Origin: Gammaproteobacteria bacterium
GTDB lineage: Bacteria > Pseudomonadota > Gammaproteobacteria > Pseudomonadales > UBA7434
Assembly (NCBI GenBank): GCA_024280785.1
Contig: JAJRPK010000384.1
Coordinates: 1-32,324 of the forward strand
Reading direction: 5' to 3'
DNA: 32,324 nt
Below are positions 25,164 to 27,700 of the stretch, in pieces. The notes under the pieces are model-generated. The model saw only the letters and a list, made by a program, of their open reading frames with translations. It was not told the DNA's origin and searched no databases. A program made the position numbers and the translations under genes. Numbering within the stretch: position 1 is the stretch's first letter; each line of letters starts with the position of its first letter.

Positions 25164-25649
25164 TTAAAATGTCAGCCTATCCAATGTTAATTTCATCCAC
25201 GGCCACAACAGAGCACTTACTAATGCGGGAATAAGGAAGGCCATGCTGTAATAATTACCGCCGGTCAAACCATGAACCCAGTAACCTATTAATTGATAAA
25301 TACCGACTAAAATAAAGACCGAAAAAGCTTGCTCAACCACTGACAACATTCTCAACCGCTGGTGTAGTAGAAAACATAGGTACGCTAAAACGGTAAGTCC
25401 CAACGCATTTTGCCCTAAAACGGCGCCTTCGAGAACGTCTACCGCCAGTCCGAGGCTCCAAGCATATACCATCCCAATTTTAAACGGAGAGTTAATAACC
25501 CAATAAACAACCGTCATCGCTGCTAACTCGGGACGTAACCAGCTTGCCCAAATAGCCAACGGCCATACCGCTCCTAACAGAGAAATTGCGGCGGTAAAAA
25601 CCACCAAAAACCAAGAAGCGGTCTGTGAATCCTCTGCCGCGTGGTTCAT
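25164..25649 (-). CDS. mreD: Rod shape-determining protein MreD
   Basis: 161-aa multi-TM protein immediately after mreC; RPELAAMTVVYWVINSPFKIGMVYAWSLGLAVDVLEGAVLGQNAL typical of MreD. Confidence 0.92.
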   Translation of the reverse strand: MNHAAEDSQTASWFLVVFTAAISLLGAVWPLAIWASWLRPELAAMTVVYWVINSPFKIGMVYAWSLGLAVDVLEGAVLGQNALGLTVLAYLCFLLHQRLRMLSVVEQAFSVFILVGIYQLIGYWVHGLTGGNYYSMAFLIPALVSALLWPWMKLTLDRLTF

Positions 25650-25678: not shown

Positions 25679-25706
25679 CGTATTGCTCACGATGTAGTGC
25701 TCACGA
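25679..25706. repeat. 14-bp tandem duplication spanning the mreC stop codon
   Basis: Minus strand TCGTGAGCACTACA / TCGTGAGCAATACG. Confidence 0.9.
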
Positions 25707-26534
25707 CAAAGGCACCCCAGCGGCAAAAACCAGTAGCACATATCGACTACGATCCAGTTTGGCACTGGGGCGGATCACTATTTTCAAAAACGGCTTTCCC
25801 GGATCCAGCACTACAGATTCAACCACTCCAACGGGATAACCGACGGGAAAACGCTGACCGAGCCCTGAGCTAACCAGTAAATCACCCGCTTTGATATCGG
25901 TTGTCGCCACTACATTAGGCAATATCAAGGTATCAATACGACCTGAACCTTCGGCAATGGCTCGCACACCATTTCGATTGATCTGCACAGGAATAGCATG
26001 GTGAGAGTCACTGATGAGAATCACTCGGGCATTAACGGCATTGACTTCGATGACTTGACCCAACAATCCATAGGCATCGATAACGGGTTGACCGACGTAG
26101 ACTCCCTTGCCCTCTCCTTTATTTATAACAATTTGGTGCTTTAATGGGTCAGGTGAAACACTGATTAACTCAGCGACGAGTACGCTATCTTGCAGCACCG
26201 TAGATGAACCCAGTAACTCCCTCAAACGAACATTTTCTGCCGTCAAAAAAACCAGCTTTTGCAATTTACCTTGCTGCACGCGCGCCTCACTGTGCAAACG
26301 TTCATTTTCTGCCAGCAAAGTGTCGCGAGAGGTGAAATAGGAATCCAAGCCCTGCACAAAATGGCCAGGCTGATTAGATAACCAATAAAAGGGGACGGAT
26401 AAGTAAGACAACACGACTCTGGCGCCACCCGTCATGTCAGTTTTGTAATCAGCCGCCATTAGCAGTAGCGATAGTAGACCCAATACTGTTAATCGTGTGC
26501 CAACTGACGGAGTTTTGCCAAAAATAGGTTTAAT
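25701..26534 (-). CDS. mreC: Rod shape-determining protein MreC, probable ATT start codon at 26534
   Basis: ENVRLRELLGS, INKGEGKGVYVGQPVID, GLGQRFPVGYPVGVVESV. Frame open upstream of TTG 26483 and encodes IKPIFGKTPSVGTRLTVL, aligning with E. coli MreC MKPIFSRGPS; AGGGG 7 nt upstream of ATT. Confidence 0.9.
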   Translation of the reverse strand: MKPIFGKTPSVGTRLTVLGLLSLLLMAADYKTDMTGGARVVLSYLSVPFYWLSNQPGHFVQGLDSYFTSRDTLLAENERLHSEARVQQGKLQKLVFLTAENVRLRELLGSSTVLQDSVLVAELISVSPDPLKHQIVINKGEGKGVYVGQPVIDAYGLLGQVIEVNAVNARVILISDSHHAIPVQINRNGVRAIAEGSGRIDTLILPNVVATTDIKAGDLLVSSGLGQRFPVGYPVGVVESVVLDPGKPFLKIVIRPSAKLDRSRYVLLVFAAGVPLS

Positions 26535-26563
26535 TACGCAACCCCTACAGGTACTGGCCGGTG

Positions 26564-27700
<1,137 letters not shown>

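Follow-up and report, generated by a model that had tools for sequence, protein, structure and literature searches.

Where does translation of mreC begin if its reading frame offers no ordinary start codon ahead of the conserved N-terminus, and what might such a start do to the amount of MreC that is made? This question is raised by the window studied here (the whole stretch of 32,324 nt that was analysed), in which mreB, mreC and mreD lie co-directionally in this order, with the following features.

26564..27607, minus strand: mreB, ATG start, ending 29 nt before the mreC AUU (PF06723, 474 bits)
26568..26570, minus strand: TGA stop codon upstream of the AUU and in frame with it
26542..26546, minus strand: Shine-Dalgarno (SD) sequence AGGGG, 7 nt spacing to the AUU; divergence among relatives dips at G/A-rich positions -11 to -8
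26532..26534, minus strand: AUU start codon of mreC, no other start-like codon past the in-frame stop agrees with the conserved N-terminus
25701..26534, minus strand: mreC, 277 codons counted from the AUU, matching PF04085 (MreC) and TIGR00219
26484..26534, minus strand: the 17 codons lost with a start at TTG 26483, corresponding to the cytoplasmic N-tail and the first part of the membrane anchor by hydropathy, with coding periodicity in relatives
25164..25649, minus strand: mreD, ATG start (PF04093, 72.6 bits)

In profile searches the mreC product scored 141 bits against PF04085 (curated cut-off 28 bits) and 204.9 bits against TIGR00219 (cut-off 92.75), with profile positions 3-272 covering residues 5-270. 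Reading from ATT 26534, 16 further codons precede TTG 26483 (codon 18) and give the N-terminus (M)KPIFGKTPSVGTRLTV. An earlier, sequence-only reading of this DNA had placed the start at ATT 26534, with AGGGG (26546-26542) 7 nt ahead of it, and these coordinates and sequences were all exact on re-reading. Its further statement that no ATG, GTG or TTG lies upstream in frame holds in the window sequence back to TGA 26570, and the E. coli MreC N-terminus to which it had likened the protein, MKPIFSRGPS, was confirmed by the E. coli locus in our sample and by PDB 7eft. It had also held that a start at TTG would cut off most of the membrane anchor. The loss is real, as the best 19-residue hydropathy window of MreC falls from 1.69 with the AUU start to 0.94 with the TTG start; TTG 26483 sits inside the anchor, and starting there drops the positive N-tail together with half of the anchor. 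Around the mreC start no RNA structure beyond chance was predicted (z 0.61), and an out-of-frame TTG-CGT-AAT-TAA (26541-26530, minus strand) between the SD and the start is unconserved in relatives.

On comparative grounds, it is near certain that mreC starts at AUU 26534. mreC was collected from 160 genomes that belong to the order of the source genome (45 families) and from 121 genomes of the class outside that order (95 families), and in each gene we noted which codon aligns with ATT 26534; ATT, ATC and ATA are together called ATH. Within the order, ATH was found in 133 of 160 genes (ATT 63, ATC 62, ATA 8), representing 39 of 45 families, and in the other orders, in a first sample that was biased towards better-scoring MreC matches, in 74 of 121 (ATC 35, ATT 25, ATA 14), representing 59 of 95 families. 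A more divergent class sample, 57 further loci from lower-scoring families, yielded ATH in 11, a canonical codon in 14 and N-termini too diverged to call in 32, and the ATH start of mreC, as judged from these alignments, is therefore common, not universal. For two alphaproteobacterial MreC N-termini no alignment was obtained at the start site. Comparison of mreC 5' ends in close relatives, which the sequence-only reading had proposed as a check, gave ATT or ATC in all ten members of the window's genus that were readable at the mreC start, and ATC or ATT was likewise present in 8/8 members of a family in which MreC shows 85-94% identity to P. aeruginosa MreC (structure 6zlv). Where the N-terminus aligned and the codon was not ATH, it was nearly always ATG, GTG or TTG. 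In two loci of one further family (L256 and L366), which lack a nearby canonical start, codon 1 is GTT and follows a good SD, possibly a GUU start like that of some Streptomyces sigR genes; in L256, an ATC is also present one codon upstream of the GTT.

The DNA on either side of the codon indicates that it is a start. Among 142 pairs of related ATH mreC genes, divergence within codons 2-12 is 12.5, 5.6 and 38.8% at positions 1, 2 and 3, and in the 30 nt upstream of the ATH it is 46-49% whichever frame is taken, falling to 13-31% only over -11 to -8, the position of the SD. As the pairs were chosen for ATH, the invariance of A and T within the codon is by selection and it is the flanking pattern that counts, according to which coding periodicity begins exactly at the ATH codon and the DNA upstream is noncoding. 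Control genes treated in the same way behaved differently from mreC: 154 of 158 mreB genes (ATH-only in one) and 135 of 144 mreD genes (ATH-only in one) have a canonical codon exactly at the aligned start or close to it. For infC, a known AUU gene, ATH was mostly recovered outside the window's genus (18 of 30 loci at the aligned codon), the genus itself being an exception. That the ATH might be an internal isoleucine codon behind an upstream start was rejected, since in most relatives, too, the frame from the upstream stop to the conserved N-terminus contains no ATG, GTG or TTG; an upstream canonical start within 12 codons occurs in 21 of 208 ATH genes, and in 20 of these its SD energy is weaker than the one at the ATH, the last showing equal values. 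By comparison, mreC resembles genes initiated at AUU, AUC or AUA in its lack of a canonical codon, its usable SD spacing, its conserved codon class and the onset of constraint at that codon.

The earlier proposal of AUU initiation at 26534 is thus strongly supported by the alignment of relatives, in which it is common far beyond the source genome. Translation from TTG 26483, with the homology upstream being residual, would use a standard start and would be a gene finder's choice, yet it is very improbable: codons 2-12 of the AUU frame are under coding constraint behind a conserved SD, half of the anchor would be removed, and relatives keep IKPxF and mostly not the TTG. Less probable still is a canonical start hidden by sequencing or assembly error. 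The source assembly, with 481 contigs, is metagenome-like, but the same codon class recurs in dozens of independent assemblies, single-contig genomes included, and the specific error considered by the sequence-only reading, a GTG misread as GTA at 26537, is excluded by genus relatives, which show ACC, ACG, TCT, CTT, ACT or GCC there and never GTG.

Investigating SD strength, expressed as the median energy predicted for pairing between the 20-nt leader and the anti-SD, we observed -7.1 kcal/mol for mreC genes with ATH starts vs -3.2 kcal/mol for those with AUG starts (p=8e-11), compared with -3.9 for mreB AUG, -6.3 for mreD AUG and -2.5 kcal/mol for background. In phylogenetically independent pairs, AUG was associated with the weaker SD about 6 times, against about 0.1 times for the opposite direction (median p 0.03). 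In E. coli and related bacteria mreC starts with AUG, usually without a good SD; the E. coli N-terminus, (M)KPIFSRGPS, is orthologous to that of the window, whereas its AUG lacks a recognisable SD. Ten mreC loci of our sample, E. coli included, combine AUG with little or no SD. This trade-off could reflect selection for a modest rate of mreC initiation, or it may be relaxation, in which only an AUH start needs a strong SD that is free to decay once AUG arises. The selection reading is favoured by the sequence comparison because the SDs of mreC AUG genes are weaker than those of mreD AUG genes (p=3e-5). Of the suggestion already made from the window alone, that MreC dosage relative to MreB may be set by IF3-sensitive initiation, the dosage part gains indirect support, since the mreC genes that switched to AUG have the weaker SD sites.

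Our main reading, with a probability of roughly 0.6, is that weak AUU initiation combined with an SD would give a low MreC output relative to the operon neighbours, that this arrangement would be open to IF3 and is probably ancestral, and that AUG lineages mostly weakened the SD. The ordinary initiator tRNA would pair with the first two bases of AUU 26534, aided by the SD, and the mismatch at the third base would leave mreC initiation weak and open to IF3 proofreading, such that MreC would be made at a lower rate than its neighbours in the operon; AUG lineages, including E. coli, would have kept modest initiation by another route, as the SD has mostly been weakened there too. An AUU start likely lowers MreC synthesis, and by analogy with infC and pcnB we infer that mreC initiation is sensitive to IF3; it should be both weak and IF3-sensitive because IF3 destabilises initiation at such codons in infC and sigR. 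A plausible reason for low MreC is stoichiometry. MreC and MreD have been reported to act in opposed ways on PBP2-RodA, and filaments formed by self-association of P. aeruginosa MreC have been proposed to regulate MreC concentration (PMC8657477).

The history of the codon was reconstructed on an MreC tree built with FastTree; it has no outgroup, and the inference of the root depends on it. Parsimony counted 37 changes between ATH and canonical codons and 80 third-base changes, and of three likelihood models the best one has AUG arising at 0.46 of the rate that other third-base changes would predict and, once gained, never lost, the root state being T or C and not AUG. AUU, AUC or AUA is accordingly modelled as the likely, though not proven, ancestral mreC start in most Gammaproteobacteria, and an AUG gain running at roughly half of the neutral rate amounts, in these models, to mild constraint only. 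Such mild constraint would also suit an AUU start that is real but a near-neutral relic, with a strong SD compensating fully, normal MreC output and no regulatory role of IF3, and so would the strong SD wherever mreC starts with ATH. We consider this rather unlikely: AUG, if simply better, should have swept, but 98 families spread over deep branches have kept ATH, and SDs weaken once AUG arises. Coupled re-initiation, in which the AUH of mreC would depend on ribosomes finishing mreB and thereby tie MreC to MreB synthesis, agrees with the short distance of 29 nt between the co-directional genes in the window. It is quite improbable, given that mreB-mreC spacing is variable among ATH genes (median 76 nt, range 6-377) and that there is no stop-start overlap of mreB and mreC.

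The AUU start of mreC can be placed beside known systems. E. coli infC starts with AUU and is autoregulated by IF3, and changing AUU to AUG abolishes this control (Butler 1987 and Sacerdot 1996, as far as they are described in PMC5559785 and PMC5472188); the ATT start of Xanthomonas infC was seen by proteomics (PMC5559785). In Streptomyces sigR, a GTC start (GTT in two species) is conserved with a strong conserved SD, and repression by IF3 was shown (PMC5472188). Like infC, mreC has an AUU/AUC start with an SD and is conserved among relatives in this respect, but it is no translation gene and has no obvious feedback on IF3. With sigR it shares a conserved start other than AUG, GUG or UUG and a strong SD, whereas phylum and codon differ and the IF3 effect, experimental for sigR, is predicted for mreC. 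The pcnB gene of E. coli also starts at AUU outside the translation-initiation genes; mreC differs from it by sitting within a morphogenesis operon.

Additionally, infC itself starts with GTG in nine genomes of the window's genus, where a fixed 11-codon ORF (beginning ATT AAG CAA behind GGAG) lies ahead of it and its TGA overlaps the infC GTG as GTGA. The sequence suggests a leader that starts at AUU and is coupled to infC, and IF3 autoregulation may have moved into the leader in this genus. The leader peptide itself is probably unimportant, because no codon periodicity was found in the ORF across the genus genomes. In the source assembly, which is about 78% complete, infC was not found.

No description of mreC starting at a noncanonical codon turned up in open-access full text; as the literature search was limited to this, with subscription papers and database annotations outside its scope, prior notice is possible. 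To our knowledge, very few bacterial genes start with AUU, AUC or AUA, and a morphogenesis gene doing so in about 98 of the families sampled would be, apart from infC, the widest such case known to us. We tentatively propose, as a possibility we would not yet rate as probable, that AUH initiation of mreC is an ancestral gammaproteobacterial device linking the dose of the elongation machinery to IF3 and the translation state, which would have gone unseen since E. coli took AUG with a poor SD. Gene finders limited to ATG, GTG and TTG are predicted to misannotate the MreC N-terminus in many genomes, and in Pseudomonas-like bacteria, which are genetically tractable, the mreC start offers a direct test of whether IF3 tunes cell-wall elongation.
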